IMG/VR virus record: IMGVR_UViG_3300042261_002269
Span: 62,001-126,000 of that record
DNA length: 64,000 bases
Reading direction: 5' to 3' (one strand)
Source: a virus
Numbering within the stretch: position 1 is the first letter of the stretch; the number at the start of each line of letters is the position of its first letter. Positions 25,114-54,947 of the stretch are shown one piece after another. Position numbers and translations under genes: made by a program. The notes under the pieces were generated by a model. That model saw only the letters and a list, made by a program, of their open reading frames with translations, did not search any database and was not told the origin of the DNA.

Positions 25114-25353
25114 ATGGCTGTTACACAAGTAAGTGAAATTTGTCTGATCTGTAAAGAAAAAATTGAAGGACAAGCAACATTTGTCGGACAAGTGACGACA
25201 ACAAACGAACCTCTTCCTGGCTGGTATACCAAAGATAAGCCGATCAAGGAAGGCAAGTTGAGAATCCGCCATTTAACTGGTGGAAAACCTCGTGGCTTGA
25301 TTTGTCAAAAATGTACCGTAGAAAGAATATTAAGTAATGACAAAAAAATTTGA
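25114..25353 (+). CDS. Zinc-ribbon protein
   Basis: 79 residues with CLICKEKIEG and a later CQKC, spaced as a zinc ribbon. It overlaps the tail of the disrupted repeat gene and the next repeat gene. Possible alternative starts; no strong ribosome binding site. Confidence 0.55.
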   Translation: MAVTQVSEICLICKEKIEGQATFVGQVTTTNEPLPGWYTKDKPIKEGKLRIRHLTGGKPRGLICQKCTVERILSNDKKI

Positions 25354-25588
25354 AACAGCAATGGAAGCCTATGATTATGCTTACAAGTATGGACGTTGTG
25401 CGGAAGCAGAAAAGATGATTCTAGAGGACAGAGGATGGATATACATGTATGCCAGACATGTAATCAAAGATCGTTGGCCTGAAGGCGAATTATTGCTTCC
25501 TTACATGTATGCCGGTCTTTATGCTGAAGAATTCAATCTGGATATCAACATCAAATTTTCAGAAAGAAAAAAATCAAATGAATCGTAG
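25337..25588 (+). CDS. Short 26-residue repeat protein, 2 repeats
   Basis: 83 residues: cap (FETAMEAYDYAYKYGRCAEAE), one full unit (VIKDRWPEGE) and an end piece (YAEEFNLDINIKF) like the C-terminal caps of larger members. Overlaps the Tat-signal gene by 11 bases. Confidence 0.65.
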   Translation: MTKKFETAMEAYDYAYKYGRCAEAEKMILEDRGWIYMYARHVIKDRWPEGELLLPYMYAGLYAEEFNLDINIKFSERKKSNES

Positions 25589-27208: not shown

Positions 27209-27811
27209 ATGAAAATTAGCGAAGTGATTGCTCTTCTGGTTAAGAGGCTTGCTGAAGATGGAGATCAGGATCTGGGTCGGCAGTTCGATAATATACTCGG
27301 TGATATACTCGGTGTCAGTAGAATTGAATTTGCAACGGCATATGAGGCTTATAATTACATAATCAAAAATGGCACTCATTTTCGTGAAATTATTGAAGCA
27401 GAAGAGCTTATTGCGAAAAATCCGCAATATGCTTTTTTTTATGCCAAGAATATTGTGCGAGGACGTTGGCTCACAGGCGAACCAGCAATCCTAAAAAATC
27501 CAGAATGGTGTTATAATTACGTCAAAGAAGTAGTTCAAGAACGTTTGCCTAAGTGCGAAGCAGTAATTGCCACCAGTGCATATTATGCTTGTGAATATGC
27601 GATTAAGATAATAAAAGATCGATTTCCTGAAGGCGAAGCGGCAATTGCGAAAGATCCACATTGTGCCGTCAGATATGCCAAAGAAATAATTAAAGCACGT
27701 TGGCCTGAAGCAGAAAAGGTAATTTTTACAAGTGATGATTGTACTCGTTGTTACGCCAAGCAATTTAACTTGGATGTTATCAGGAAGTTTGCGGAAAGAA
27801 TAACAACATGA
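27209..27811 (+). CDS. 26-residue repeat protein with N-terminal LLVKRL domain, 5 repeats
   Basis: 200 residues. The first ~40 (KISEVIALLVKRLAEDGDQD) match the stand-alone 55-residue protein at 49099, so here a separate small protein is fused to the repeats. Units follow with IVRGRWLTGE, VVQERLPKCE, IIKDRFPEGE and IIKARWPEAE, then a C-terminal cap (YAKQFNLDVIRKF). AAAGGGACAAC precedes the ATG. Confidence 0.72.
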   Translation: MKISEVIALLVKRLAEDGDQDLGRQFDNILGDILGVSRIEFATAYEAYNYIIKNGTHFREIIEAEELIAKNPQYAFFYAKNIVRGRWLTGEPAILKNPEWCYNYVKEVVQERLPKCEAVIATSAYYACEYAIKIIKDRFPEGEAAIAKDPHCAVRYAKEIIKARWPEAEKVIFTSDDCTRCYAKQFNLDVIRKFAERITT

Positions 27812-28031
27812 CAGAATTTTTTACGCTAGAGATGTGTTGTTTGGCAGATTTCCTGAAGGTGAAGCGATAATTGCTTCAAGTCCAACTTATGCTTATCTGT
27901 ATGCTAAAAACACACTTAAAAGACGTTGGCTTGAAGCTGAAGCAACGATTCTTTCGGATTCAATACCTTCACAAAATTATGCTGATATATTCAACTTAGA
28001 TATTATTAGAAAGTTTAAGGAAAGGAATTAA
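27808..28031 (+). pseudogene. Frameshifted 26-residue repeat gene
   Basis: An ATGA overlap start gives MTEFFTLEM, which ends early. The repeat frame (YARDVLFGRFPEGEA, then TLKRRWLEAEA and a NYADIFNLDIIRKF cap) lies one base away. The switch point is a run of six T at 27817-27822; seven T would make a single open frame MTEFFYARDVLF. It could be a real mutation, a slippage-controlled gene or a sequencing error. Confidence 0.6.
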
Positions 28032-30748: not shown

Positions 30749-31215
30749 TGTTGAAAAAAGTAATATCAGGCGGTCAGACAGGCAGTGATTTTGCTGGATT
30801 AGAAACAGCCAAAGAATTTGGATTTAGAACCGGAGGATTAATGCCTTATGGTTTTAAAACCTTAGATGGTTGTAAACCAGAATACAAAGACCTATTCGGA
30901 TGCACCACCCATACATCCAGCAGCTATGTTCCTAGAACAAAGCTAAATGTTAAAAATAGTGATGGAACAATCCGTTTGGCTTTTGATTTCTCAAGCCCTG
31001 GAGAAATCTGCACATTTGAAGCCATTAAATACTATAAAAAACCTTACATTGATGTAGATCTGGCAAATCCCAGACCTGTAGAAGATGTGGTCAACTGGCT
31101 AAACGAAAACAACATTAAAACACTAAATGTCGCAGGAAACTCTGAAAAAACTGCTCCTGGCAGTTACGAAGCAGCAAAAGGCTATTTGAAAGAATTGTTT
31201 ACACAATTAAGCTAG
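30748..31215 (+). CDS. Circularly permuted YpsA / SLOG-family protein (putative molybdenum carrier type)
   Basis: 155 residues. GGQTGSD at 8-14 is the nucleotide-binding loop of the SLOG superfamily, and the order ...GLMPYGFKT..., LNVAGNSEKTAPG fits the circularly permuted YpsA group often labelled 'putative molybdenum carrier'. Members bind nucleotide-related ligands and often sit in phage and defence contexts. It overlaps the previous stop (TAATG). Confidence 0.75.
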   Translation: MLKKVISGGQTGSDFAGLETAKEFGFRTGGLMPYGFKTLDGCKPEYKDLFGCTTHTSSSYVPRTKLNVKNSDGTIRLAFDFSSPGEICTFEAIKYYKKPYIDVDLANPRPVEDVVNWLNENNIKTLNVAGNSEKTAPGSYEAAKGYLKELFTQLS

Positions 31216-32182
31216 GTAAGATTTTGTCGCCATGGTAATGAATAGATTGGTTGTGTAGAGCATTTACTCCACAGCCACAAAACTTTACATCAACATCTGT
31301 CTCTTTAAATAAATCTCTCAAATATTCCATTGCATCTATATGCTCTTGGGTTGCATTTATTGTTGAATCTAAATCGATATAAAGATTTTTGACCCCTGTC
31401 TCCAAAACTCTTCTAAAAAATTCTTCTAGTTCAGGAATGCTATGATTAATATCTGTTATAATATATTTCGCTACAATGATTGAATCGCCATGTACACTAA
31501 CATATCTTTTTAAATTCTCAAACACTTGATCTAGAAAGTCTTTGCCTTTCATTTGTTTGTATGTCTCATTTAGTCCACTGTCAATTCCATATATTATGTG
31601 CAGATTGTCTTGTCCTAATTTATCAAATATTGCTTGAGAAAATACCGTTCCATTGGTGTTCAAGAAGTTGTATGTTCCATAATCCAAAAGAAGACCCAGA
31701 ATCTCATCAAATCTACGCAATAATGTTGGCTCTCCACCACCCCAATAAATAGCAGATCGAGGGTCCAACCAGTTGTTTTTTGTCAATTGTTCTAAAGCTG
31801 GCATTACATCGTAATAGTTTTTCCTCAACCCAAGGTTTCCACCTTTATTCCAGTCAATCCCTATGTAGCAGTACTTGCATCTAAGATTGCAAAGCGTATA
31901 ATGAGAAAAATTCAACTGATCAAATAGATATTCTGACTTGAATGGCTCAGCATTTTGAAAAATACATCCCTTACAGGAATCATATCCATCAATTACGTTT
32001 TGCACCAATAATTCTTGTCTTTTAAGCATTATTTTGTCAATTGGCAAATCTCCACCATGATATTCGCAAATCGGAACAAAACCTAGATTTGTATGATGAG
32101 TTATACAGCAAACATGTAGTTTATCTATTCCGAAGGTCAATCCGCTTCTTACCCAACGACATGTGAGTTTTTGAACTTCCAT
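31199..32182 (-). CDS. Radical SAM protein with auxiliary Cys clusters
   Basis: 327 residues on the minus strand between plus-strand genes. CNLRCKYCY (Cys98, 102, 105) is the radical SAM cluster; GGGEP at 148-152 is the SAM-binding motif. Upstream Cys groups (CC at 25-26, C39, CKGC at 70-73) could bind a second cluster, and CGCG lies near the C-terminus. This recalls peptide- or RNA-modifying radical SAM enzymes. Its 3' end overlaps the convergent SLOG gene by 17 bases. Confidence 0.75.
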   Translation of the reverse strand: MEVQKLTCRWVRSGLTFGIDKLHVCCITHHTNLGFVPICEYHGGDLPIDKIMLKRQELLVQNVIDGYDSCKGCIFQNAEPFKSEYLFDQLNFSHYTLCNLRCKYCYIGIDWNKGGNLGLRKNYYDVMPALEQLTKNNWLDPRSAIYWGGGEPTLLRRFDEILGLLLDYGTYNFLNTNGTVFSQAIFDKLGQDNLHIIYGIDSGLNETYKQMKGKDFLDQVFENLKRYVSVHGDSIIVAKYIITDINHSIPELEEFFRRVLETGVKNLYIDLDSTINATQEHIDAMEYLRDLFKETDVDVKFCGCGVNALHNQSIHYHGDKILPSLIV

Positions 32183-32198
32183 ACTCTATATATTACAT

Positions 32199-33008
32199 AT
32201 GAAATTTAAAAACTGGCTATTACAAGAAAGTATTGATATTTCCCAATTGGGGGGTAAATTTCTCCAATTGTTGGACAATATCAAACAAGACGCAAAACAC
32301 CATAAAGAAGGGGATGTACTCACCCACACCAAAATGGTTGTTGCTGCTTTAGAGCCAGTAAGGTTGAAGCTGCAAAATATTCAAAAAGACCCCAATCATC
32401 CATTGTGTCCTGTTATTTCAGATATAGACTTCAATATATCTGATGAAGAAAAAGACATATTGACCCTGGCTGCTTTCTTGCATGATATTGCCAAAGCTAC
32501 TCGTACAGAAGAACGAGATGGCAAAATTACCTCTTATGGACATCAAGAATCTAAGCATTTCAAGCCTCTTATTGCGTATGTTTCAGAGGATTTTGATCCA
32601 GCGGTCAAGCAAATTTATCACCAGCATGAAGCCCTAATTGATTGGCTAGTAGAAAACCACATGCATCTTTGTGGCAATATTTTCTCCAAAAAGTTCCTTA
32701 AAGACTTTTTTGTCAATGGAAAGATTATCAATAATCAAAGAATTAAGCTGCTTCTGATTATTATGTGGGCAGATCAATCTGGAAGACATCAAGATCATGT
32801 TGAGGCAAATATCGCCCAAACAACTCAGAGAATTGTAGATTCTGCCAAAAAACAGGCAAGCAAACCACTGTCTAAACCAAAACAAGAGTTTACACCACAA
32901 GAATTCATTCAATTGCTTAGAAAACAAGGACTATCTGACCAAGCCATCAAAGGCCATTTAATGAAGAAATTTACATTAGACAACAAACAAGCTGACGAAC
33001 TGCTATGA
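32199..33008 (+). CDS. HD-domain phosphohydrolase (tRNA nucleotidyltransferase HD-like)
   Basis: 269 residues. The metal-site order is present: EGDVLTHTKMV (His43), FLHDIAK (His95-Asp96), GHQESKH (His115) and a later HQHEALIDWL region; an Asp in WADQSGR may complete it. This pattern matches HD domains linked to tRNA nucleotidyltransferase or poly(A) polymerase, here without the polymerase. A C-terminal helical tail (QEFIQLLRKQGLSDQAI) is extra. Its end overlaps the carbamoyltransferase start, so they are coupled. Confidence 0.75.
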   Translation: MKFKNWLLQESIDISQLGGKFLQLLDNIKQDAKHHKEGDVLTHTKMVVAALEPVRLKLQNIQKDPNHPLCPVISDIDFNISDEEKDILTLAAFLHDIAKATRTEERDGKITSYGHQESKHFKPLIAYVSEDFDPAVKQIYHQHEALIDWLVENHMHLCGNIFSKKFLKDFFVNGKIINNQRIKLLLIIMWADQSGRHQDHVEANIAQTTQRIVDSAKKQASKPLSKPKQEFTPQEFIQLLRKQGLSDQAIKGHLMKKFTLDNKQADELL

Positions 33009-34486
33009 GATTTATAGGATATCACGGTAAACATGACGTTTCCATTGCTATTTTTAACGATTCGGAGTTAGAATTTTACGCTCAAGCTGAAAGATTCTTT
33101 CCAAGAAATAAAAACCATTACCATACCCCCGATCCCATTCTCAACGCTTTTCCAGATTTATTAAACGGAAACTATGTTACTGCTATCACTTCTTTAGGCG
33201 AAGAGAATTATCCAACTCCTAAATACGATCCATCTTTAATTAGATACCTAAAATCTCCTCACCATCTTTTTCCTGACTCCAAATTCAATCTTGTCGTAGA
33301 TCATCATCTAGCACATGCTGTTTCTTCTTGGCTTTATCGACCAGATGACAAAGAAAGGCTTTTTTTAGCCTATGATGGCTGTGGATATGGCATCGATCCT
33401 ACTCAACCCAATAAAGCTTCTCTTGTAGGCGTAATAAACAAAAAAGGCTTTTACAAAATAGAAGATGCCCTTCCTGTCCCTTCAAGTGTTCCAATTTGCA
33501 CTCTTCTAGGACATAATTCGGCAGGAAAAGCCATGGGATTGGCTGGTTATTTGCCACACATCCCCCCAATTGAGTGGGATGCAAAAAATGTCATGAAGTT
33601 ATTGAATGTTTCTTATGATTGGAACAGTATAGTTCCGTGTTATATTGAGTTCAAAAATCCAAATTCAAACGATATGGAGTTTATTGCTGGTTTTTACAAG
33701 TTCCTTATTGAGCAAATCTGGGTCAATATCAAAGAAAACATAGAAAAATTTGGCAGCAATCGTGGAGTGGTTGTTGGTGGAGGTACTGCATTAGCTTTGG
33801 AGCTAAACACCAGGATTTACAATATGACTCAAGACTTGGTCTTTGGACCGCCAATTAATGATAGTGGTCTTGCTTTAGGTGCTGCTGCTCTTGCTTATTT
33901 CCATGTTTATAAGAAGTGGCCCAAAATCAATTCTGCGGCCATTAATGCCCTTCAGACGCCTTTGCCTCAAATAGGGGCACAGGAACCCCAAGAGATCGCC
34001 AAACTCATTGCTAGGGGCAAAATTGTAGCTTTAATGAGGGGTAAAAGCGAAGCAGGGCCAAGAGCTTTGGGATTTAGATCTATTTTCGCTTCTGCCAAGG
34101 CAGAAAACCTCAAAATTGTTTCAGAAGGCATAAAAGGGAGAGAGTTTTATCGTCCTTTGGCTCCTGTAGTGACATCAGAAGCTTTTGATCAATATTTCAT
34201 TGGTCCCAAAGGCGAATACATGCAATATCGTTGTATTTGTACTGATATGGCCAAGCAATATTTACCAGCCATAGTGCATCGTGATTTTTCATCAAGGCCA
34301 CAGGTCGTTTATAAAGAAAAAGACCCTTGGCTACATGAACTTTTGGTTGAATACGGCAAATTAACTGGACATGAGTGTTTTATCAACACTTCTTTAAATC
34401 GAGCAGGAAAGCCGATTTGTAACAGTTATGAGGATGCTCAAGAGGACATGCAGGGCAAAGATGTAACATTTGTGGTATTAAAATAA
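33005..34486 (+). CDS. Carbamoyltransferase, NodU/TobZ/CmcH family
   Basis: 493 residues, close to family length. Kae1-like domain: GYHGKHDVSIAIF at the start, HHLAH at 100-104 (metal ligands), LAYDGCGYG near 124, VVVGGGTALA near 260. YrdC-like C-terminal part: KSEAGPRALGFRSIFA near 345-360, KGREFYRPLAPVV and FINTSLNRAGKPI. The family moves a carbamoyl group from carbamoyl phosphate via ATP to a hydroxyl. Phage members have been linked to carbamoylation of hydroxymethylcytosine in DNA; the substrate here is unknown. Confidence 0.88.
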   Translation: MRFIGYHGKHDVSIAIFNDSELEFYAQAERFFPRNKNHYHTPDPILNAFPDLLNGNYVTAITSLGEENYPTPKYDPSLIRYLKSPHHLFPDSKFNLVVDHHLAHAVSSWLYRPDDKERLFLAYDGCGYGIDPTQPNKASLVGVINKKGFYKIEDALPVPSSVPICTLLGHNSAGKAMGLAGYLPHIPPIEWDAKNVMKLLNVSYDWNSIVPCYIEFKNPNSNDMEFIAGFYKFLIEQIWVNIKENIEKFGSNRGVVVGGGTALALELNTRIYNMTQDLVFGPPINDSGLALGAAALAYFHVYKKWPKINSAAINALQTPLPQIGAQEPQEIAKLIARGKIVALMRGKSEAGPRALGFRSIFASAKAENLKIVSEGIKGREFYRPLAPVVTSEAFDQYFIGPKGEYMQYRCICTDMAKQYLPAIVHRDFSSRPQVVYKEKDPWLHELLVEYGKLTGHECFINTSLNRAGKPICNSYEDAQEDMQGKDVTFVVLK

Positions 34487-40169: not shown

Positions 40170-41510
40170 TTATTGTTCTTCCAAATTAGAAAGTCTTTTT
40201 TCCAAACTTGCTATTTGTTTTTCTATGGTGTCAATTTTATCAATTGCAGAACTTAGTGTCAATTCGGATTTCGGTTTCGGCATGAAACTAGAGAATGTCA
40301 ATTTAAAATGTTCAGCATATTTATAAGCATGAACAGGATCAGAATGTTTCAAAATTCCTTCTTCTGCTTCAGGCCAACGAGCCTTTAGAACATTTATCGC
40401 ATATAGGCAAGCATATTCTGGGTTTTGAACAATCGCTGCTTCAGCTTCAAACCAACGACCCTTGATTATATTTACAACATAAAGATAAGCATATTGTACA
40501 TTTTTAGCAAGTTCTGCTTCACATTCAGGCCAACGTCCACCAATCACTTCGTTGGCATAATAATAAGCAGAAGAGGGGTTTCTTGCAATTGTTACTTCGC
40601 CTTCTGGAAAACGCTTTCTAATCACATATCTAGCATACAAATAAGAAGTTGAAGCATCTTGAGCGATCATCTTTTCTGCTTCAGGACAATGTTCTCTTGG
40701 ATGATTCTGAGCATAACTATAAGCTTCTTTTATTGTTGCAAATTTCAACGGTGTGTCAGCAAGTGTCACCGCCAATTTAAACTGATCTGCATATTTACTG
40801 ACAAGGTTAGTAGACCTTGAAATCGTCGCCTCTGCTTCAGGCCAACGATCTTTCATAACATTTACTGCATAGTAACATGCATAAAATGGATCTTGAATAA
40901 TTACTGCTTCGCCCAACGGAAATCGCCCATTCAAAACATAAAGAGCATAATGATAAGACCATTGTGCATCCTGAGCAATTGTTGCTTCGCCTTCAGGAAA
41001 GCGAGACTTCAAAACATTTGTTGCATAATAATAAGAATATTCTGCACTTTTAATAATTTCTACTTCTGCTTCAGGACAACGACCTTTTACCACATCTTTA
41101 GCATGATCGTAAGCTTCTGCTGGTTTCATAAATTTCAATTCCGGTTTGAGCAAGCCAACACTTCTAGAATAAAGCCAAGCATAAACACTACTTGCAGCAA
41201 TTTCCGGTTCGCCTTCAGGAAATCTGCCTTTAATCACATTGAGAGCATATTCATATGACCACCGTGGATTTGTGGCAATTATTTTCTCGCCTTCAGGAAA
41301 TCTACCTTTAAGCACATTGAGAGCGTATTCATAAGATCTGATTGTATCTGTGGCAATCGCTGCCTCGCCCAAAGGGAATCTGCCTTTAATTATATCACGA
41401 GCATAAACATAAGACCATGCTGAATTTGTAGCAATGACAGATTCTGCTTCAGGAGAAGGCCCATAAACAAGAACATGATTATAAGCTTCTTGTAGTGATT
41501 TAAATTTCAT
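40170..41510 (-). CDS. Large 26-residue repeat protein, about 13 repeats
   Basis: 446 residues. Units occur in three blocks, each opened by a cap (LQEAYNHVLVYGPSPEAE; PAEAYDHAKDVVKGRCPEAE; IKEAYSYAQNHPREHCPEAE) and closed by a KYA-x2-FKL segment. The C-terminus is a coiled coil (DKIDTIEKQIASLEKRLSNL). The start after GGAG was chosen over a longer one overlapping the upstream gene. Predicted alpha-solenoid; ligand unknown. Confidence 0.75.
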   Translation of the reverse strand: MKFKSLQEAYNHVLVYGPSPEAESVIATNSAWSYVYARDIIKGRFPLGEAAIATDTIRSYEYALNVLKGRFPEGEKIIATNPRWSYEYALNVIKGRFPEGEPEIAASSVYAWLYSRSVGLLKPELKFMKPAEAYDHAKDVVKGRCPEAEVEIIKSAEYSYYYATNVLKSRFPEGEATIAQDAQWSYHYALYVLNGRFPLGEAVIIQDPFYACYYAVNVMKDRWPEAEATISRSTNLVSKYADQFKLAVTLADTPLKFATIKEAYSYAQNHPREHCPEAEKMIAQDASTSYLYARYVIRKRFPEGEVTIARNPSSAYYYANEVIGGRWPECEAELAKNVQYAYLYVVNIIKGRWFEAEAAIVQNPEYACLYAINVLKARWPEAEEGILKHSDPVHAYKYAEHFKLTFSSFMPKPKSELTLSSAIDKIDTIEKQIASLEKRLSNLEEQ

Positions 41511-41523
41511 GACTTCAACTCCT

Positions 41524-41706
41524 TTAGATGACACGATTTCCCTTCCATTTCATGGAATTAATTTGAGAAATGTCTTGTTTTTTTAGCCACTGTTCAAAAT
41601 CTGCTCGATATTTCACACAAACATAACAATTACAGCTACCTAAGTAGGATTTCCATTCTACAGGATGAAGATGGGCGTATTCCAACCATTTCTTTTCTTT
41701 GGACAT
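41524..41706 (-). CDS. Small Cys-containing protein
   Basis: 60 residues with CNCYVC, and a Trp/Lys-rich composition. ATGA overlap with the gene upstream. Confidence 0.5.
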   Translation of the reverse strand: MSKEKKWLEYAHLHPVEWKSYLGSCNCYVCVKYRADFEQWLKKQDISQINSMKWKGNRVI

Positions 41707-41927
41707 CAATCACCACCCTGATATATACTAAAAAGTCTTAATGCTTGTTGGTATTCATATTCACGAATACGCTCTCTTCTTTTAGCGTCTTCCGCTTCTT
41801 CCCTGGCTTTTTGTCTAGCTTCCTCTCCCTCTCTCATTAAACGATAAGCAATATCTCGCTTAATATTTCGTCTAAATACAAATCGATCAGTAAAATCTTT
41901 CCATCTTCTATGCACAGTCTCTCTCAT
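41706..41927 (-). CDS. Small basic coiled-coil protein
   Basis: 73 residues, Arg/Glu-rich helix (REGEEARQKAREEAEDAKRR). Could bind nucleic acid or a partner; no family. Confidence 0.55.
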   Translation of the reverse strand: MRETVHRRWKDFTDRFVFRRNIKRDIAYRLMREGEEARQKAREEAEDAKRRERIREYEYQQALRLFSIYQGGD

Positions 41928-41930
41928 AAA

Positions 41931-42209
41931 TCACCATTGACTAATTGAGTCGAATAAATTATCCAACCCAGCATTATATTCTCTACGCAGCCATTCAAGC
42001 CGATCTAATGCTGCTTGTTTTAGTTCTTTAGGATCAATTTTTACATCTGCCTTGGGAACCCATCTGGTGACTTTCCCGTTATCAGGCTCACAAATATAGC
42101 CATCTTCTAAAGGAGATTCTCCAACACATGTGCCATAAAAAACAGTATAGCCGTAGTCGGTTGATGAATTAAGATGAAGCTGAAACCAACAAACCCTTTC
42201 GCCAATCAT
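41931..42209 (-). CDS. Hypothetical protein
   Basis: 92 residues. Beta-rich first half (DYGYTVFYGTCVGESPLEDG) and helical end. Overlaps the gene downstream by the usual few bases. Confidence 0.55.
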   Translation of the reverse strand: MIGERVCWFQLHLNSSTDYGYTVFYGTCVGESPLEDGYICEPDNGKVTRWVPKADVKIDPKELKQAALDRLEWLRREYNAGLDNLFDSISQW

Positions 42210-42448
42210 TCCTCGTCCTTTATTTGGATATTATGTTTAGCTGCATAGAGAAAATCTGTGGGCATTTTCGCTAGAATCTTGGCAGCTTTTTTAAATACCG
42301 TCATAGGTGAATCGCACCAATCTGACTGCCAAATGTCAGATGTAGATTTAGGATCTCTAATAACACTTCGATATTCGTCGTAACCGCCATTATAATTTTC
42401 ATGATTTTTTTCAACTATAATGGTAATTTCAATTTCTTTTTCAGCCAT
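42206..42448 (-). CDS. Hypothetical protein
   Basis: 80 residues. The ATG right after the upstream stop was used instead of a longer frame that reads across the upstream gene. IEITIIVEKNHENYNGGYDE suggests a beta hairpin; no family. Confidence 0.5.
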   Translation of the reverse strand: MAEKEIEITIIVEKNHENYNGGYDEYRSVIRDPKSTSDIWQSDWCDSPMTVFKKAAKILAKMPTDFLYAAKHNIQIKDEE

Positions 42449-42449
42449 T

Positions 42450-42683
42450 CTACGCCGATCCATATCTGAACGATTTGAAACACTCGCACTCGTCATCCTC
42501 ATTGCTGACAATGAACCCTAGTTTATCGAGACTAGCCTTGTCCTCATCACTAACCTGCTCAGGCGTAATGCCAACGATGATCAACTCATCGAATCGGCAG
42601 GCGGTTGGATACGGTGGGTTCCCATACTTTCGAAAGATTTTCAATGCCTCGATCAGGCCGTCAATTCCAGTGGATGCCGCCAT
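42450..42683 (-). CDS. Conserved phage protein (FRYGSA family)
   Basis: 77 residues. ALKIFRKYGNPPYPTACRFD, ITPEQVSDEDKASLDKLGF and the end SFRYGSA match a small protein type seen in many phages and prophages, role unknown. The DNA is visibly more GC-rich, with different codon choice from its neighbours, which suggests recent acquisition. Confidence 0.65.
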   Translation of the reverse strand: MAASTGIDGLIEALKIFRKYGNPPYPTACRFDELIIVGITPEQVSDEDKASLDKLGFIVSNEDDECECFKSFRYGSA

Positions 42684-42685
42684 GT

Positions 42686-42898
42686 TTATAAATCCATAAA
42701 AATTTGTTTAAGAGCCAACATTTGTTCACGATTTCTTACTTTGAATGCAGCCCCCAGATGGGTGGTCCCTAAAAATTCTGTCCAAATGGGAAACTGATAT
42801 TCCATATCTTCCATTTGCCAATGGGTATCAACATCATAAGGACGATGTTTAGATCTCAAAAATAAGTCTAATTCCTCTTTTGAATCAAATTTTTTCAT
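42686..42898 (-). CDS. Hypothetical protein downstream of tRNA-like gene
   Basis: 70 residues. A GGAGG ribosome binding site sits seven bases before this ATG, just past the tRNA 3' end, so this start is preferred to the longer frame that runs through the tRNA. No domain recognised. Confidence 0.7.
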   Translation of the reverse strand: MKKFDSKEELDLFLRSKHRPYDVDTHWQMEDMEYQFPIWTEFLGTTHLGAAFKVRNREQMLALKQIFMDL

Positions 42899-42910
42899 TT
42901 TTTCCTCCAA

Positions 42911-42984
42911 GCCAGTGGTTGGATTCGAACCAACATCTCCCATGCCACAATGACACGAGACTCTTCCATTTGAGCTACACTGGC
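42911..42984 (-). tRNA. tRNA-like gene, isotype unresolved
   Basis: A seven-base acceptor stem (GCCAGTG / CACTGGC), a D arm (GCTC/GAGT with GG in the loop) and a canonical T arm (GTTGG TTCGAAT CCAAC) are present; no CCA is encoded. The anticodon arm is ambiguous. A paired stem (CGTGT/GCATG) gives loop CATTGTG with TTG (Gln) but lacks U33. The loop TTGTGGC would give GTG (His) but its stem does not pair. It may be degenerate. Confidence 0.65.
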
Positions 42985-43168
42985 TTATTTTTCTTCTCCA
43001 AACACCCCAAGGCTGATCAGTCATAAAACCGATATGCAGAGGATATTGTATCCATTCCTGTTTTTCGCCACATTTCAAGCAGGTTCTTTCTTTATTTTCT
43101 GGTTCAAGTGATACGCTTAAACTAGGCCAGCGACAATCATTATTATCCCATTTATGAAATAAACACAT
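42985..43168 (-). CDS. Zinc-ribbon segment whose frame runs into the tRNA
   Basis: About 61 residues (MCLFHKWDNNDCRWPS; CLKCGEKQEW) precede the tRNA and have no own stop: the frame stays open through the tRNA (giving GSNPTTG) and on to 42686. Either the gene lost its end when the tRNA arrived or a 160-residue read-through protein is made. Confidence 0.45.
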
Positions 43169-43171
43169 TGT

Positions 43172-43435
43172 TTACCTTTCCGCTGATTTCAACTTTTCCC
43201 TCAATCTGGCAGAAGCAAGTGCCAAAGCAATCATTTCGGAATCCACCATCCCAAGTGTAGCCAGAGATAATAGAGCCTGTGCTTGCAGCAAATCTTCTTC
43301 TTCAAAATTCAGACCTTCGGTACATTCTTCGTATTTTTTACTCAAGTCTTTGAAGAAAAGGGTGTATTTCTCATTTTCACGAGTTAACTTTTCGACTTGT
43401 GCTTCAAGTTCAGCAATTCGTTCGTCTGGTGTCAT
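43172..43435 (-). CDS. Coiled-coil protein
   Basis: 87 residues. Starts in an ATGA overlap after GGGGAG. Heptads at the N-terminus (DERIAELEAQVEKLTRENEK) and an Ala/Leu-rich C-terminal helix. Confidence 0.6.
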   Translation of the reverse strand: MTPDERIAELEAQVEKLTRENEKYTLFFKDLSKKYEECTEGLNFEEEDLLQAQALLSLATLGMVDSEMIALALASARLREKLKSAER

Positions 43436-43872
43436 GAAATGTCTCCCCAAGAAAGTTTTTTACAAGGATTCATCTGATCCCAATCTGCAAATACAAATTG
43501 TCGATCAGGCCAAGTCTTCAAAGCGTGTCGAAGTGCTGGCACAAAACCCTTTGAAGTAAGAACAGATCCAAAAAATTCACTTCCATCTTCTGTCCAAAGA
43601 TTATAGAAAATCTCTTCGCCTTTTTGACCATTGTCCTTATTGTTTTGTGAATCAAGTGGACAACAATGACTTAAGAAATGGAAGTCTGGAAATTGCTTCA
43701 AAGCGATTTTCCACGCTTCATTTGGATTATATCCAACAATTGCCCCAATATAGTCTCCCTTGTAAACAACATAACACACATGCCGACTGTCAGTTTTTTG
43801 GGCATTTAAACCTGTTACGCCTAAAGTTGCACCCAAAGCGGTTGTTACCAAAAATTCTCTTCGTGAAATCAT
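43432..43872 (-). CDS. Exported protein with twin-arginine signal
   Basis: 146 residues. The start MISRREFLVTTALGATLG is a near-consensus Tat signal (SRREFL), cleaved probably after LNA. The mature part shares GAIVGY and a 'LRHALKTWPDRQFVF' strand-helix with the 56292 gene. A longer frame upstream was rejected. Its stop overlaps the next start. Confidence 0.72.
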   Translation of the reverse strand: MISRREFLVTTALGATLGVTGLNAQKTDSRHVCYVVYKGDYIGAIVGYNPNEAWKIALKQFPDFHFLSHCCPLDSQNNKDNGQKGEEIFYNLWTEDGSEFFGSVLTSKGFVPALRHALKTWPDRQFVFADWDQMNPCKKLSWGDIS

Positions 43873-43912
43873 CCGTGCCCTTTCCCTTGTAGTGCCTGGA
43901 ATATATAACATA

Positions 43913-44467
43913 TTATCTTAAACCTAAATAACCAAGACAAAAATAGACTCCATAACCGAAGCAGCCTAAACTAAAACCCAATATGGCCAAAGCAATTAAG
44001 ATACACACTACGGAAAAAGTGGTCTCGACTATATTTTTTAGAAAAAAATCTAATTTACTATTGAAAAGACTCCACTGATAGTGATCTGGCAACCATCTTT
44101 TTTTCGATGCTGTTTTGGATTCAAATCTTTCAAATTTAAAATTAATTTCCGCCAAATTCGCATTTGATCGTCTTAGTTCTTCATTTTCAGCCACAAGTCC
44201 TTCATTTTTGTTTGTCAGTTCATTTAATCGTCTAACTAATTCACTGCATGCATCCTCCAATTTTATATTTTTGGTTTTTAATTCAGAATTCTCATCTTCA
44301 AATTTTGAATATTTGCCCAGATATTGATGTTGGCTAGCACTTTTTCTTCGCAGTTTTTTGAGTTTCCGTTCCAATTTGTCGATAGTTTTACCTCTGGCTA
44401 ATAATTTAGCATAGATAGTTTTAATTTCGATATTTAATTGCTGCCAAGTAAGTGCTAATGTTTTCAT
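43913..44467 (-). CDS. RKSASQH-family coiled-coil membrane protein
   Basis: 184 residues: a basic coiled coil containing RGKTIDKLERKLKKLRRKSA (shared by three other genes), a long second coil (NELTNKNEGLVAENEELRRS) and a C-terminal membrane span pair. Likely tail-anchored. Confidence 0.65.
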   Translation of the reverse strand: MKTLALTWQQLNIEIKTIYAKLLARGKTIDKLERKLKKLRRKSASQHQYLGKYSKFEDENSELKTKNIKLEDACSELVRRLNELTNKNEGLVAENEELRRSNANLAEINFKFERFESKTASKKRWLPDHYQWSLFNSKLDFFLKNIVETTFSVVCILIALAILGFSLGCFGYGVYFCLGYLGLR

Positions 44468-44631
44468 GTTTTATCCTTCAAATTTTGACGTAGATTTCTG
44501 ATCTTTTTTCGCATTCTTCGGATCTGTTTTTCTAATTTGTGAATGGTTTTACCTCGACTGGTAACCCATTCACACAAACCTTTAACTTCTTTATTCAGAC
44601 ATTCGATGTATTCTTGATCAGATAAAGTCAT
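44464..44631 (-). CDS. RKSASQH-family short coiled-coil protein
   Basis: 55 residues ending in RGKTIHKLEKQIRRMRKKIR, the basic coil of the family, without a membrane span. The ATG after TAGGAGTAAA was chosen; a longer frame would start within the 19-base tandem repeats. Overlaps the next gene's start. Confidence 0.55.
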   Translation of the reverse strand: MTLSDQEYIECLNKEVKGLCEWVTSRGKTIHKLEKQIRRMRKKIRNLRQNLKDKT

Positions 44632-44646
44632 TTTACTCCTACCTTG

Positions 44647-44703
44647 ATTTCTAGTTGCAACCTTCATTTCTAGTTGCAACCTTCATTTCTAGTTGCAACC
44701 TTC
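44647..44703. repeat. Three perfect 19-base tandem repeats
   Basis: The unit ATTTCTAGTTGCAACCTTC occurs three times in the gap between two genes. On the minus strand each copy holds GAAGG and an ATG junction. A unit length of 19 shifts the frame at each copy, so it is not a coding repeat. Confidence 0.9.
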
Positions 44704-44713
44704 ATTTAAAGAT

Positions 44714-46945
44714 TTAGCATAAAAACATATTGTGCAATTTTGATTCCAAATTTTCAAGTCTTGTCAGAATTTCATCCAAAGTAACAGATTCTTTACTTTT
44801 TGTCAATTCTGGTTTAAAACCAGCAAATTCCAATCCAAAAAGAGCAGCATATTTGGAGGCAAATACAGATCGTGAAATTTCTACTTCTGCCTCAGGAAAT
44901 CTTCCTCTAATTATCTTGTCTGCATAGAGATATGCAATGCCAGGATCAGTAGCGATTACTGGTTCTGCCTCAATCCAGCGACCTTTTAACACATCTTGAG
45001 CATAACGATATGCAAAAATTGGACTTTGAATAATTGTTGCTTCGCATTCGGAACAACGACCTTTTAACACATCTTTAGCGTAACTATAAGCTTCTACTGG
45101 AGTCATTAATTTCGGGTTATAACCTTCTGCTATTGAAAATTCCTTGCAATATTTCTTGTAAAGATACGAATCTGTAGCAATTGCCTCTTCACCTTCAGGC
45201 CAACGGCTTTTGATTGTATTCATAGCATAAAAACAAGCGTAATATGCATCCTGAGCAATCATCGGCTCTGCTTCAGGCCAACGATCTTTTATCACATATT
45301 TAATATATCTATAAGCATAATGTGCATCCTGAGCAATTGCTTTTTCGCCCTCAGGCCAACGAGCTTTGATTACATTTATAGCATAAAAACAAGCCCAATG
45401 TGCATCCTGAGCAATCACCTTTTCGCCTTCAGGCCAACGACCCTGAATTATGCTCTTGGCATAAAGAGCAGCAAACTGTGCATCCTGAGCAATCATCGGC
45501 TCTGCTTCAGGACAACGACCTTTCACTATATCTCTAGCATAGCCATAAGCTTCTACTGGCGTTGTAAATTTCGGTTTTTCCAGCGTAATTGTTAATTTAA
45601 AGTTATTGGCATATTTGGATGCATCTGCTGATGCTAGGATCGTAGATTCTGCCTCAGGCCAACGATCCTTAATCATATCTACGGCATAATTATAAGCCCA
45701 AGGTGAGCTTTTAGCAATTACTGCTTCTGCCTCAGGCCAACGTGCCTTTATTATTTTTTCGGCATAACGATAAGCCCATTCCGCATTTTTGATAATTGTT
45801 GGCTCTGCTTCGGGCCAACGTCCTTTAATTATCTGCAAAGCATAAAGAAATGCATAATATGCATCTTTAGCAATAGCAGGTTCTGCCTCAGGAAACCTAC
45901 CTTTAATAATGTCTTTGGCATAAATATAAGCAGTTGGTGCTGCTTGAGCAATTGCTTTCTCTCCCTTAAGAAATCGAGATTTTAAAACATGAAGAGCATA
46001 AAGATATGACATGTAGGCATTTTCTGCTATTTTATCTTCTACTTCAGGACAACATTGCTTTGGGTGGGCAATAGCATAACGATAAGCACTTGATGGACTA
46101 TCAAATTTCAACGGGAATTTATCACAATATTCCCTATTAATAGATTTAACCTGAGCAATTGCTTTTTCTGCTTCAGGAAATCTTCTCTTAATTACGCTCT
46201 TAGCATAAAGCCAAGCCCAATCTGCACTCTGAGCAATAGCTGGTTCGCCTTCAGCAAAACGCCCTTTAATTACATCCATAGCATACAAACAGGCGTATTT
46301 TGCATCTGTAGCAATTGCCTCTTCTGCTTCAGGCCAGCGTCCGCCAATCACATCTCTAGCATAAAAAAAGGCATTTTGTGCGTTTTTTGCAATTACCGCT
46401 TCACCTTCTGCCCAACGCCTTTTCAGAACATTGCAGACATAAAGATATGATACATATGCATTTGTTACTATTACCTCTTCCGCTTCAGGATAACGCTTAT
46501 CTGGATGATTGAAAGCATAACGATAAGCATCTGCTGGATTAGCAAACTTAAGTTTTTCAACAAAAGTAATATCCATTCCTGTGAATTTAGCATATAAAAA
46601 AGCAAGATGACCATCAGTGGCAATTGCCTTTTCGCCTTCTGGAAATCTACCCTTAATCACATTACGAGCATAATAAAAGGCATATTGTACATCTGTAGCA
46701 ATTGCCTCTTCTGCTTCAGGCCAGCGTCCACCAATCACATCTCTAGCATAAAAAAAGGCACATTGTGCGTCTTTTGCAATTACCGCTTCGCCTTCTAGAA
46801 AACGACGACCTTCAAGATGATTAAGAGCATATTTATAAGAGTGAGATGCATCAGTAGCAATGATTGCTTCCCATTCAGGACAACGATTGTCAGAACTCAC
46901 AGCACAATTGTAAGCTTTTCGTACTATTTCAGGATTCACGTTCAT
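44714..46945 (-). CDS. Giant 26-residue repeat protein, about 23 repeats
   Basis: 743 residues, the largest protein here. Some 23 units of the form YA-x2-VIKGR-(F/W)PE-(A/G)E-x2-IA are arranged in blocks of four to six. Each block opens with an 'x-EAYxYA...RCPEAE' cap and ends with KYA-x2-FKL-like segments. A short coiled coil ends the protein (LDEILTRLENLESKL). Paired short helices stacked as an alpha-solenoid are likely. Trp/Phe alternation in GRWPE/GRFPE and the loop residues vary most. Near-identical neighbouring DNA shows unit duplication. Confidence 0.78.
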   Translation of the reverse strand: MNVNPEIVRKAYNCAVSSDNRCPEWEAIIATDASHSYKYALNHLEGRRFLEGEAVIAKDAQCAFFYARDVIGGRWPEAEEAIATDVQYAFYYARNVIKGRFPEGEKAIATDGHLAFLYAKFTGMDITFVEKLKFANPADAYRYAFNHPDKRYPEAEEVIVTNAYVSYLYVCNVLKRRWAEGEAVIAKNAQNAFFYARDVIGGRWPEAEEAIATDAKYACLYAMDVIKGRFAEGEPAIAQSADWAWLYAKSVIKRRFPEAEKAIAQVKSINREYCDKFPLKFDSPSSAYRYAIAHPKQCCPEVEDKIAENAYMSYLYALHVLKSRFLKGEKAIAQAAPTAYIYAKDIIKGRFPEAEPAIAKDAYYAFLYALQIIKGRWPEAEPTIIKNAEWAYRYAEKIIKARWPEAEAVIAKSSPWAYNYAVDMIKDRWPEAESTILASADASKYANNFKLTITLEKPKFTTPVEAYGYARDIVKGRCPEAEPMIAQDAQFAALYAKSIIQGRWPEGEKVIAQDAHWACFYAINVIKARWPEGEKAIAQDAHYAYRYIKYVIKDRWPEAEPMIAQDAYYACFYAMNTIKSRWPEGEEAIATDSYLYKKYCKEFSIAEGYNPKLMTPVEAYSYAKDVLKGRCSECEATIIQSPIFAYRYAQDVLKGRWIEAEPVIATDPGIAYLYADKIIRGRFPEAEVEISRSVFASKYAALFGLEFAGFKPELTKSKESVTLDEILTRLENLESKLHNMFLC

Positions 46946-46947
46946 GT

Positions 46948-47340
46948 TTATTTTCCTTTCTCAATAAAAATCATTTCCAAACCAAACGCATCTGCATAAA
47001 TCTGAGCAAATTCAGGATTGCGAATAATCGTTGGTTCTCCTGCCAAAAATCTTTCCCCAAGGGCGTTTAAAGCGTAATAACAGGCAAGATATGCGTCACT
47101 GGAAATAGCCTCCTCGCCTTCAGGAAATCTTCCTTTGATTATTCCACAAGCATAATCATAAGCATATTGTGTCTTAGCAATTGCCGGTTCGCCCTTGGGA
47201 AAACGTTCACCAAGAACTTCTGCGGCATATTCATAAGAAAAGTAGGCATCAGTAGCGATAATATCTGCTAATTCTGGACAAGGTTGCATCCTAGATTTGG
47301 CAATCCTAAAAGCTTCTGCTGGCGTCAGTGTCAGTGTCAT
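46948..47340 (-). CDS. Short 26-residue repeat protein, 4 repeats
   Basis: 130 residues: cap (PAEAFRIAKSRMQPCPELA) and units VLGERFPKGE, IIKGRFPEGE, ALGERFLAGE, then a YADAFGLEMIF end. It sits between the two largest repeat genes and overlaps the upstream one in an ATGA junction. Confidence 0.7.
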   Translation of the reverse strand: MTLTLTPAEAFRIAKSRMQPCPELADIIATDAYFSYEYAAEVLGERFPKGEPAIAKTQYAYDYACGIIKGRFPEGEEAISSDAYLACYYALNALGERFLAGEPTIIRNPEFAQIYADAFGLEMIFIEKGK

Positions 47341-49097
47341 TTCGATTCTTTCTCTGTAAAACCAGTGGTAACTTCCAAATTGAAAAATCGAGCATAGCCT
47401 AGTGCAAAATAACGATCCTTAACAATCATTGGCTCTGCTTTTCTCCAACGCCCCTTTAGTGCATTCAAGGCATATTTGTAGATGTATTCCACACTTCCAA
47501 GAATTGCCTGCTCTCCTGCTGGAAATGGTCCATTGAGTACATCGCAAGCATAATAACATGCATATAGTGGACTTTTGGCAATTGCTGCTTCGCCTTCAGC
47601 AAAACGCCCTTTTATTACTTCATTGGCGTATTTGTAAGCCCATTCCGCATCTTCTTTGATTATTGGCTCTAATTTCGGACAACGTACTTTAGCTACTTCA
47701 CGAGCATGCCTATATGCTTTTTCAGGAGATGAAAAAGCTTCGGCTGGGATCTGCTGTTCGTCTTCTAGAAAACCAAGCTTTAATTTGAAAACGTTTCGAT
47801 ATTCCCTAGAATACCAGAGGTTTCCCATAATGATTGGTTCACCAGCAGGAAAACGATCATGAATTACGTCTCTAGCGTATTCAAAGGAACATAATACATT
47901 TTTAGCAATAGCTGGTTCGCCTTCTGGCCAACGCCCTTTTATTACATATTTGGCATATTTGTAAGCATGATCAGTATTTTTAGCAATTGCTGGTTCACCT
48001 TCAGCAAAACGCCCTTTTATTACATTTATTGCATATGCGTAAGAATAACTGGCACTTTGAGCAATTACTGGTTCTCCAGCGGGAAATCGTCCATGAATAA
48101 TATCATAAGCATACAAATGCGACCATTTGGCATCTTGAGCAATTACCGCTTCACACTCAGGAGATGGCTGGTTTTTACTCAAAGCATAACTATAAGCTTC
48201 TTCAGCAGTTGTGAAACGTGGTTTTTCTGCAACAATCTGCTGTTCCTCGAAAGAACAATCATCTTCTAGAAAACTACTAACAAGATTTAATTTGAAAGTT
48301 TTTATATATCCTTTTATCCATTCTGAATCACCTTTAAGAATTGCCGGTTCTCCAGCAGGAAATCTACCTTTTATTACATCCTTGGCATACAAATAAGAAA
48401 GATATCCGTGCTGTGCAATTGCTTTTTCGCCCTCAGGCCAACGAGCTTTGATTACATTTTTAGCATACATATAAGAATAATTGGCAATTTGAGCAATTGC
48501 TGCTTCACCTTCAGCAAAACGCCCTTTTATTACTTCATTGGCATACATATAAGCACATTGTGCATCGGTGGCAATTGCTGCTTCGCCTTCAGCAAAACGA
48601 CCATGAATTACTTCATTGGCATACATATAAGCATATTGTGCGTCCTGTGCAATTACCTCCTCTCGAAATCTGCCCTTAATTACATCCTTGGCAGTCATTG
48701 TTGGTTTTTCCACAATTGCAATATCCAATCCCAAAAAATCAACATACTGGCCTAAATAGTACGAATTAGACACCATTGCTTTTTCACATTCAGGGAATCT
48801 ACGCTTAATTATATCTCTGGTATAATAAAAAGCGTAGATTGGACTTTTAGCAATTGTTGCTTCGGCTTCAGGAAATCTGCCTTTAATTACATGATTGGCA
48901 TACATATAAGCATAATATGCATCGGTGGCAATTGCTGGTTCTCCCAAAGGAAAACGTCCCTTAAAATCATTCGCAGCACAAAGATAAGAACATTCTGCAC
49001 TTGTTGCAATTTCATTGAGTGCGTCAGTTCCATCACGACCGCCTGTTCCATTTTTCATCACATACTTAAGAGCTTCAGATGCACTTGTAAATTCCAT
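47337..49097 (-). CDS. Large 26-residue repeat protein, about 17 repeats
   Basis: 586 residues in three blocks, each beginning with an EALKYV / EEAYSYA / EKAYRHA cap. Two neighbouring units (VIHGRFAEGE, VIKGRFAEGE) are nearly identical. One unit is shortened by several residues (VIKGRFREEVIAQDA), an in-frame deletion. Preceded by the small 49099 gene, whose homologue is fused to repeats at 27209. Confidence 0.75.
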   Translation of the reverse strand: MEFTSASEALKYVMKNGTGGRDGTDALNEIATSAECSYLCAANDFKGRFPLGEPAIATDAYYAYMYANHVIKGRFPEAEATIAKSPIYAFYYTRDIIKRRFPECEKAMVSNSYYLGQYVDFLGLDIAIVEKPTMTAKDVIKGRFREEVIAQDAQYAYMYANEVIHGRFAEGEAAIATDAQCAYMYANEVIKGRFAEGEAAIAQIANYSYMYAKNVIKARWPEGEKAIAQHGYLSYLYAKDVIKGRFPAGEPAILKGDSEWIKGYIKTFKLNLVSSFLEDDCSFEEQQIVAEKPRFTTAEEAYSYALSKNQPSPECEAVIAQDAKWSHLYAYDIIHGRFPAGEPVIAQSASYSYAYAINVIKGRFAEGEPAIAKNTDHAYKYAKYVIKGRWPEGEPAIAKNVLCSFEYARDVIHDRFPAGEPIIMGNLWYSREYRNVFKLKLGFLEDEQQIPAEAFSSPEKAYRHAREVAKVRCPKLEPIIKEDAEWAYKYANEVIKGRFAEGEAAIAKSPLYACYYACDVLNGPFPAGEQAILGSVEYIYKYALNALKGRWRKAEPMIVKDRYFALGYARFFNLEVTTGFTEKESK

Positions 49098-52413: not shown

Positions 52414-53163
52414 TTATTCTGTTACGGGTTTTTGGAACCTAGCCAGAACAGCTTCTGCCGCAGCAGATCGCTCCAATTCCTCATCTTCTTCTTCAGCCAG
52501 AGCAACTCGATTTAGATCACGAGATGCCTTGGAGGCTCCTCGATTCTCATTAATTTGGTCCTTAACTCTCTGGCGTGCCGCAGCCAAATCGCCAACATTA
52601 AGCCGATCCTTGAGGGCAGCAGACATTTGATTCAAATTCTTTTCTGCCTCAGATTGCTGCAATTGAGCCCCAAGAGCAGCCGCATCCTTTCGGGCTTCTT
52701 GAATCTCCCGTTCAAATCGTTCAACCAACTTCAGATTGTCATCATATTGCTGTTGAGCGATTGCCTTCTGTTCTTCATTGGCTTTCAGATTTTCTTCAAC
52801 CCGAGCCAAATCAGCAGCGTACTTTGCGGCATTCTTATTGGGATCGCCTTTAGCCAAAACCGATTCAATACGAGTGGTAAGTCGTTGCTGTTCCTTTAGG
52901 TCATCGGCAATTTGATTTTCCAAAGAAACCAACTGTTTAGCAGCAGCCACTACCACAGCATTAGCTTGCTTGCCATTTTCAGCAGCATTTTTGATTTGGG
53001 TTTTTAGGACGCCAAGAGGATCAGCATTCAGAACTGCCTCTGCTCCTTTATCCGCTTGTGCCCCACCCCATAGTCCAATTGCCTTGAAAAAACGACGAGC
53101 AGGAGGACTAATCGCAGCCAAACAAACCACCACAACCACAGCAATCAAAATTGTCGTAAACAT
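52414..53163 (-). CDS. PspA/Vipp1-like coiled-coil protein with N-terminal membrane span
   Basis: 249 residues. A membrane span (TILIAVVVVVCLAAI) is followed by ADPLGVLKTQIKNAAENGKQ and a long Gln/Ala/Glu-rich coil that matches PspA-type proteins in layout (start 'DP...', then coil to the end). Typical PspA has no span, so this one is membrane-anchored. Ala-rich, Gln-rich composition differs from neighbours. Closed by a strong terminator. Confidence 0.55.
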   Translation of the reverse strand: MFTTILIAVVVVVCLAAISPPARRFFKAIGLWGGAQADKGAEAVLNADPLGVLKTQIKNAAENGKQANAVVVAAAKQLVSLENQIADDLKEQQRLTTRIESVLAKGDPNKNAAKYAADLARVEENLKANEEQKAIAQQQYDDNLKLVERFEREIQEARKDAAALGAQLQQSEAEKNLNQMSAALKDRLNVGDLAAARQRVKDQINENRGASKASRDLNRVALAEEEDEELERSAAAEAVLARFQKPVTE

Positions 53164-53187
53164 AATTCCCTCTCTCAAGTTAAAGAA

Positions 53188-53877: not shown

Positions 53878-54947
53878 TATTCCTTAATAAAGAAGAGATA
53901 AGCCATACCACCCAAGAAAAATAGAATAATTGCCCAGAATATGATTGTGCCTGCTATGTTGGCTCTTTCTTGGGCATCATTTGGCACTTCTACAGGATTG
54001 TACGAGGCATTAACGAATTCTTTATTATACATCAAATCTGGATTACTAGCCATTTCAGGTGGAACATAGCTTGCATCTTGAGGCGTATTTTTGGCTTTTA
54101 GCTGATCAATTTCTGCCTGAAGTTTTGCATCCTTGGCAAGCATCTCTTTATATCTTGCTGCATCCATGTCACTCTGATGATTGTACATCCATAATGCCCG
54201 CTGGTGAGTATTAATGGCATCCGAAAACAACCAGCCCATCAAAAATGGCGAAAATGGGTCGTGATAATAAACTGGCGACCCATAAAATCCACCATAAAAA
54301 GTGCTAGCACGGTTATCATAGGTGACATATCGCTCATGGGTAACGTATTTTCGCACCGTTTGAACCGAAGGTGAGTCTGGTTTAATTGTCTGTTGAACAA
54401 CTTTACCGTCTGAACCTTTGGAGGTATAAGTGGATTTTGGCGTCGTCGCTGCTTTAAATATTTTCTGACTTTCTGCACGTTTTGCAGAATTGCTCATAGA
54501 GCTATTAAATCCACTGCTAATTGGTTTTCTGCTATTGCTGGCAGATGATCCTGAACTAGAAGAATATGTCTTGCTGCCAGAACTTTTTGTCGAGCTTGAA
54601 CTACCTGAAGAAAATGATTTTCCACTTCCTGAAGAAAATGATTTTCCACTACTACCCGATGGCTTACTTCCTGAAGAAAACGATGATCGACCACTACTTC
54701 CTGAAGAAAACGATGATCGACCACTACTTCCTGAAGAAAACGATGATCGACCACTACTTCCTGAAGAAAATGATCGACCACTACTTCCTGAAGAAAACGA
54801 TGATCGACCTGAGGAGAAAGATCGACTACCTCCTGAGGAGAAAGATCGACCGCCCGATCCGCCTTTTGCAAAAATTTGTGGAGTATCGGTCAAAAAGACC
54901 ATACTTGCCATCAAAAAGACATACATCAAACTACGCATCTTAACCAT
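53874..54947 (-). CDS. Secreted/membrane protein with Ser-Gly repeats
   Basis: 357 residues. Signal peptide (MVKMRSLMYVFLMASMVFLT), about 120 residues of (S/F)SSGSSGRS repeats, a helical region, and a C-terminal membrane span (IIFWAIILFFLGGMAYLFFI). Likely anchored with the repeats outside the cytoplasm. A longer start overlapping the upstream gene was rejected because AAAGG precedes this ATG. Confidence 0.65.
   Translation of the reverse strand: MVKMRSLMYVFLMASMVFLTDTPQIFAKGGSGGRSFSSGGSRSFSSGRSSFSSGSSGRSFSSGSSGRSSFSSGSSGRSSFSSGSSGRSSFSSGSKPSGSSGKSFSSGSGKSFSSGSSSSTKSSGSKTYSSSSGSSASNSRKPISSGFNSSMSNSAKRAESQKIFKAATTPKSTYTSKGSDGKVVQQTIKPDSPSVQTVRKYVTHERYVTYDNRASTFYGGFYGSPVYYHDPFSPFLMGWLFSDAINTHQRALWMYNHQSDMDAARYKEMLAKDAKLQAEIDQLKAKNTPQDASYVPPEMASNPDLMYNKEFVNASYNPVEVPNDAQERANIAGTIIFWAIILFFLGGMAYLFFIKEY

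Follow-up and report, generated by a model that had tools for sequence, protein, structure and literature searches.

The 64,000-nucleotide stretch of DNA analysed here (the window) comprises positions 62001 to 126000 of the 190,199-base IMG/VR record IMGVR_UViG_3300042261_002269, which derives from a large, uncultivated tailed phage with gp23-type head genes. Ten of its open reading frames (ORFs), six on the plus strand and four on the minus strand, encode proteins made of tandem 26-residue units. A position-specific scoring matrix (PSSM) of 26 residues, built from window units and scanned over all window ORFs with a threshold of at least 20 bits, found 74 units in these ten ORFs, scoring 21 to 77 bits; the top score among 5,580 shuffled ORFs was 3.0 bits, against 21 bits for the weakest real unit. 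With about five degenerate N-cap units, counted by eye, the window total rises to about 79, in agreement with an original prediction, made from the sequence alone, of more than 75 units over about ten genes on both strands. That prediction had placed the whole family at 40170-49097, but this range holds just the four minus-strand genes and 54 strict units; the remainder lie at 10.3 kb and 22.8-28.0 kb. An eleventh repeat gene, with 7 units plus caps, is found about 1.4 kb beyond the window end (record positions G000:127420-128280).

The unit consensus is (A/P)-x-Y-A-Y-x-Y-A-x-(N/D)-V-I-K-G-R-(F/W)-P-E-(G/A)-E-x-x-I-A-x-D, and the units are grouped in blocks, mostly of 3 to 6. Blocks are opened by a variant unit and closed by a YxxxFxL half unit, and of 20 block-first units 9 have cysteine at position 16, whereas none of 51 internal units does; these are the distinct capping segments that had been predicted. 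The window proteins are mostly acidic, with isoelectric points (pI) of 4.6 to 6.3 apart from one short protein at 8.25, and the units themselves are near-neutral to acidic (median charge of -0.19 per unit and median pI of 6.0).

The longest member, encoded at 44714-46945 (minus strand), has 22 units in five blocks (3, 5, 6, 5, and 3) plus a degenerate N-cap unit, which accounts for the 23 units of the original prediction. The other minus-strand genes encode 13 units in three blocks of 4, 4, and 5 (40170-41534), one block of 3 units capped at both its N- and C-terminal ends (46948-47340), and 16 units in blocks with linkers between them (47337-49097). On the plus strand, the PSSM located 3 units at 10292-10861, followed by a C-terminal domain of about 90 residues that matches phrog_13501, which has no assigned function; one block of 5 units at 22828-23382 and one of 4 units at 23865-24371, both with C-terminal tails that look coiled-coil-like on inspection; 2 weak units (21 and 37 bits) in a short protein at 25334-25588; and 2 units plus a C-cap at 27804-28031. 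The remaining plus-strand gene, at 27209-27811, encodes 4 units following an N-terminal segment of about 70 residues that starts MKISEVIALLVKRLAED and resembles a head-packaging signal.

Predicted fold and kinship of the repeat

We modelled the 40170-41534 protein with AlphaFold2, using an input of this protein and 46 relatives. The model has a mean predicted local distance difference test score (pLDDT) of 87, with most block segments at 90 to 98 and linkers near 50. In the model almost all units consist of a 12-residue helix (helix A, unit positions 1-12) followed by a 7-residue helix (helix B, positions 17-23), so that the predicted fold is a two-helix alpha-solenoid, as had been proposed. 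The C terminus is modelled as a 27-residue helix (residues 427-453, encoded at 40176-40256 on the minus strand) that is likely a coiled coil. C-terminal coiled coils had been described for the family; they are clear in this protein and, judging by inspection, likely in three more, but they are not general.

Searches for a known family returned little. No entry in Pfam, NCBIfam, or the PDB describes the 26-residue repeat, a PDB sequence search with it gave nothing credible, and a search of the literature on the motif and on phage solenoids found nothing relevant. The sole good match in PHROG is phrog_28193, to which no function is assigned (3e-20 for the 44714-46945 protein). Foldseek found no PDB match at E ≤ 0.001 for the three-block 40170-41534 model or for the model of a relative that carries the WCT domain described below; both queries were multi-block models, in which flexible linkers lead to poor template modelling (TM) scores. 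The top match of the 40170-41534 model in BFVD is A0A248SK38 (648 residues, E of 3e-3), which we assume to be gp435 of Salicola phage SCTP-2 because the two have equal length. This gp435 combines a WCT domain with recognizable units, but it has just one or two of these and its remainder is unrelated helical sequence. Lower BFVD matches are phage proteins titled "Leucine rich repeat variant" (LRV; PF01816). LRV units are likewise short helical solenoid units, but these matches have E values of 0.3 and above with low TM-scores, and the hhalign score to the LRV consensus is just 7.3.

The closest relation uncovered is to DUF4116 (PF13475). When a four-unit profile of the relatives was compared with hhalign to one built from viral DUF4116 repeats, 87 columns aligned in exact register (probability 84%, P of 7e-6, score 34.9), while 60 column-permuted profiles reached at most 14.8 and a reversed profile 9.2. 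Scores against TPR, ankyrin, PPR, Sel1, LRV, HEAT, and ARM, each represented by a single consensus sequence, were 9.0 or less, and Pfam gave no credible match to TPR, PPR, Sel1, HEAT, ARM, or ankyrin either. Pfam confirmed the identity of two of the DUF4116 loci used, at 102 to 161 bits. Both repeats have A4, Y7, A8, a hydrophobic residue at position 12, and variable positions 3 and 6; both are arranged in tandem and occur in viral contigs. DUF4116 has been modelled as an alpha-solenoid with trRosetta (PMC8078820), in keeping with the fold predicted here by AlphaFold2. DUF4116 units differ in having 25 (or 22) residues rather than 26, and they lack the (K)GR(F/W)PE(G/A)E segment and the invariant E20 of the window repeat. 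The 22-residue form was seen in the DUF4116 proteins of four loci (L151 and L157-L159), in place of the usual 25. The match is weak with window-only units (probability 12%), and the PF13475 model, with its cut-off of 24.9 bits, matches neither the window genome nor the unit consensus, for which reason we do not file the repeat under DUF4116. Scores of this kind are inflated by repeats, and the P-value covers one comparison, so shared ancestry is likely without being proven; the 26-residue repeat is probably a distant cousin of DUF4116. The claim of a new family thus holds in that the repeat has no name and no describing entry, but probably not in the sense of a family without kin. The units are indeed shorter than those of TPR, HEAT, PPR, and Sel1, as had been pointed out, but this is not distinctive, as DUF4116 units are equally short.

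One label needs correcting. The 44714-46945 protein passes the Pfam cut-off for HTH_35 (PF13693), with 37.3 against 25 bits, and an automatic pipeline would wrongly call it DNA-binding. The best-matching stretch spans 17 of the 75 positions of this winged-helix domain, the predicted fold is a solenoid, and the match is a false positive driven by the repeat. This match and one to phrog_769 seem to stem from a short likeness near R-x-W-P-x-G-E. Other Pfam, NCBIfam, and PADLOC matches to the repeat were weak or covered the models partially, and we took them as repeat artefacts. The repeat defines a real, unnamed, and distinctive family, a new short alpha-solenoid repeat variant near DUF4116.

Distribution among phages and variation of the units

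A strict ten-residue pattern, run against IMG/VR to collect relatives, gave 195 stretches, of which 74 loci were kept; the bait for searching genome contigs was an alignment of consensus-like rows. Related repeats thus occur in no fewer than 74 IMG/VR loci, a few of which overlap or are near-identical. Together these loci encode 160 repeat proteins with 790 units, which follow one another at 26-residue spacing in nearly all cases. A gp23-type head protein is present in 12 of 34 repeat-bearing records and the matching protease in 11 of 34, many of the others being short fragments, and related repeats appear to reside largely in big gp23-type phages. Seven loci derive from metagenome-assembled genomes (MAGs). 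Repeat genes were seen on short contigs of an archaeal MAG (L087-L090, Lokiarchaeota MAG RBin_111), which are probably mis-binned viral contigs. The family is essentially absent from 50,697 annotated phages: in tblastn against them, neither the 44714-46945 protein nor the consensus gave a match, and the 40170-41534 protein matched only Salicola phage sequence, and weakly. A search of plasmids gave one weak Rhizobium match with a single recognizable unit.

One tandem array, L012/L013 (IMGVR_UViG_3300035181_001867, about 0.35-19 kb), consists of 28 head-to-tail repeat genes that fill most of about 19 kb. These paralogs have nearly identical 60-residue N-caps and 2 to 11 units each.

Per-position Nei-Gojobori counts were made on the units of the 13 contig groups that had enough of them. 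Nonsynonymous variation is dominated throughout by positions 2, 3, 6, 9, and 10, four or five of which stand within the top seven variable positions in nearly all groups. Core positions 4, 7, 8, 11, 12, 15, 20, and 23 (residues A4, Y7, A8, V11, I12, R15, E20, and I23) are conserved, with ratios of nonsynonymous to synonymous differences (pN/pS) of 0.08 to 0.28. On a helical wheel of helix A, the variable positions center at 240° and the core at 47°, on opposite sides. Residues frequent at the variable positions are W, Y, R, D, N, and E, which are common in protein-binding surfaces.

The young L012/L013 array, from a related phage, has an excess of amino-acid change at this face: pN/pS is 3.29 at the variable positions (bootstrap 2.95-3.71), compared to 0.28 (0.21-0.35) in the core and 0.10 in the N-terminal caps that these genes encode. 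A unit resembles the units of other paralogs (0.825) as closely as those of its own protein (0.830), which indicates that units are exchanged throughout the array, with diversity kept at the face. The original prediction had suggested that binding specificity might be set by variable positions. As far as sequence can tell, this was well judged, in that the same five helix-face positions are the hypervariable ones across the 13 groups and, in the youngest array, outpace the synonymous sites. A face that had been guessed at is now measured, and we regard this as evidence of a natural binding face.

Fused domains, N-termini, and genomic surroundings

Some relatives carry a further domain in front of the repeats. 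The N-terminal WCT domain, of consensus GTKWCTA...PLYI...KYQFH...QFMD with an invariant W-C pair, is present in 37 of 170 relatives, and its fusion to repeats was seen in L014, L018, L022, L027, L035, L061, L082, L085, and others. It has no Pfam match and, like the repeat, matches phrog_28193; a PcfJ-like assignment was dropped for want of Pfam support. Salicola phage SCTP-2 (MF360958.1), with six places that encode WCT-domain proteins, is the only annotated phage found to have them, and a search of the window genome, made without a positive control, did not find the domain. An HCG variant of the W-C motif in L081 is a lead only, as is the N-terminal domain of the L070 repeat protein (5407-6423), which by eye resembles an ADP-ribosyltransferase (YHGT...SLSRD...TEYEEY) and has no Pfam or PHROG match. 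WCT and other domain fusions fit a targeting module.

The N-termini of WCT proteins often have the form M(K/R)-hydrophobic...(L/I)xE, which resembles the T4 capsid-targeting sequence. This motif, defined after the sequences were seen, occurs in 16 of 29 WCT N-termini; control ORFs have it in 11 of 365 cases and the other repeat proteins in 3 of 90. Counted by independent lineage, it occurs in an estimated 7 of 11 (p of 5e-8). Among the window repeat proteins it is present in one of ten (27209-27811). A separate window protein, at 32199-33008 (plus strand), starts with MKFKNWLLQES, also similar to the T4 sequence, and has a weak match to phrog_6931. The internal proteins of T-even phages are a diverse counter-defence set whose only shared feature is an N-terminal capsid-targeting sequence of about 10 residues (PMC3012670, PMC7697877). 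The N-terminal motif of many WCT-repeat proteins may correspond to that of the T4 internal proteins (IPI-III and Alt), but the window repeat proteins mostly lack it.

The head gene block lies at 3.5-7.5 kb of the window, and the repeat genes are located apart from it, amid small ORFs. The block includes, as context genes free of the repeat, a head maturation protease (3518-4198, plus strand; phrog_207, 3e-49) and the gp23-type major head protein (5112-6560, plus strand; phrog_138, 8.5e-84). The latter shares 77% identity with its counterpart in LR756511.1, an uncultured phage of 595 kb, and the adjoining head genes are collinear with that phage at 41 to 77% identity, so the record may belong to a far larger genome. 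A hidden Markov model (HMM) of a two-unit stretch gave 55 matches across the whole record and no match in LR756511.1 or LR756508.1. The absence of the family from its closest capsid relative marks it as an accessory trait, dispensable in the wider lineage, as expected for a conflict gene.

Several other features of the window were noted. Between repeat genes are a tRNA-Gln(TTG) at 42909-42985 (minus strand), inside the ORF at 42686-43168, and a small protein with a twin-arginine-like leader (SRREFLVTTALGATLGV) at 43432-43911 (minus strand). Elsewhere lie genes for a radical SAM protein (31199-32182), a Nol-like carbamoyltransferase (33005-34486; 2e-71), and a PspA/IM30-like protein slightly under the Pfam cut-off (52414-53178, minus strand), and a single ORF in which a flavoprotein domain precedes a weak match to M23 peptidase (63087-63983, minus strand). 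Tandem DNA repeats of short period (24 and 30 bp; consensus, e.g., TACTTCCTGAAGAAAACGATGATCGACCAC) occupy 54600-54809.

A proposed modular binding protein and its alternatives

The reading we favor, with modest confidence, is that the family consists of cytoplasmic modular binding proteins whose variable face is under diversifying selection. Inspection revealed no evident signal peptide, so the proteins likely act inside the cell. Helices A and B of successive units, in cap-closed blocks of mostly 3 to 6, would stack into an alpha-solenoid held together by the A4, Y7, A8, V11, I12, R15, E20, and I23 core, and the large proteins would be several such blocks strung together; those members with a C-terminal coiled coil would probably form oligomers. 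The stripe of positions 2, 3, 6, 9, and 10 along helix A would then be exposed as a paratope-like surface. Phages would maintain paralogs and unit variants in several to many copies while selection for changing partners, perhaps in an arms race, diversifies the stripe. The likely ligands would be variable proteins, such as host defence or takeover targets or rival-phage factors.

Several points weigh against this. The solenoid is a prediction. A pN/pS above 1 rests mainly on the single L012/L013 array, which is a metagenome assembly of near-identical genes in which assembly errors are possible. Synonymous divergence there is 0.13 in the units compared to 0.40 in the caps, and the face ratio falls to about 1 if the cap value is the yardstick. 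Face ratios of about 0.7 to 1.6 in older arrays, and of about 0.7 to 1.2 at single positions in the window, could be produced by relaxed constraint. The variable set was chosen from the same data on which it was tested, yet it recurs in independent contigs.

Relaxed constraint is also what would be expected if the solenoids built a virion or intracellular phage structure and the exposed face varied because it is unconstrained, since face pN/pS would then be near 1, as in most groups; long multi-block rods with coiled coils would suit such a role. We think this unlikely: the repeat genes lie apart from the head block amid small ORFs and are missing from the closest capsid relative, the youngest array is above neutrality, and a structural part would not require 28 tandem paralogs with 2 to 11 units. 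The original prediction had called the solenoid a scaffold, a term for which we found no specific support.

An extension of the binding reading, to which we give a rather low probability, is programmable targeting across phages: the face would pick a host or rival protein, a fused domain (WCT in numerous large phages, the ADP-ribosyltransferase-like domain in L070) would act on it, some members would be packed into the heads of gp23-type phages via T4-like N-termini and enter the cell with the DNA, and a unit code could be read from positions 2, 3, 6, 9, and 10. The same positions might instead read nucleic acid in the manner of PUF, PPR, and TALE proteins, each unit recognizing one base or step. 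Modular units with a few variable helix-face positions, frequently aromatic, are formally code-like, but the five positions are spread over many residue types with no small code, hhalign shows no similarity to the PPR consensus, and the acidity of most of the proteins, together with the near-neutral to acidic units, speaks against it; we judge it improbable. Neutral expansion, in which units multiplied by unequal recombination with no selected binding role, would account for unit numbers of 2 to 22 and the free exchange between paralogs; strong purifying selection on core and caps and the recurrence of the same face across 13 groups make it very improbable. Targeted mutagenesis by a diversity-generating retroelement, suggested by change concentrated at fixed codons, is scarcely credible, given a mixed set of variable codons (e.g., TGG, GAG, TTG, and TAT at position 6) with no adenine-templated pattern and a search for reverse transcriptase (PF00078) that gave matches in control genomes but none in six repeat-bearing records, of which some are fragments.

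The repeat represents an unnamed family that is common among large phages without cultured representatives but nearly invisible among cultured phages, and whose members current standard annotation mislabels, e.g., as HTH_35. It carries the signature of a natural binding-protein repertoire, in that the core is fixed, a single face is hypervariable, paralogs stand in tandem, units are exchanged, and, in a young array, amino-acid change outpaces synonymous change. If the ligands are host defence proteins, the family would document phage-host conflict in readable form and might also offer a new scaffold for protein binding, comparable to the designed alphaRep libraries.

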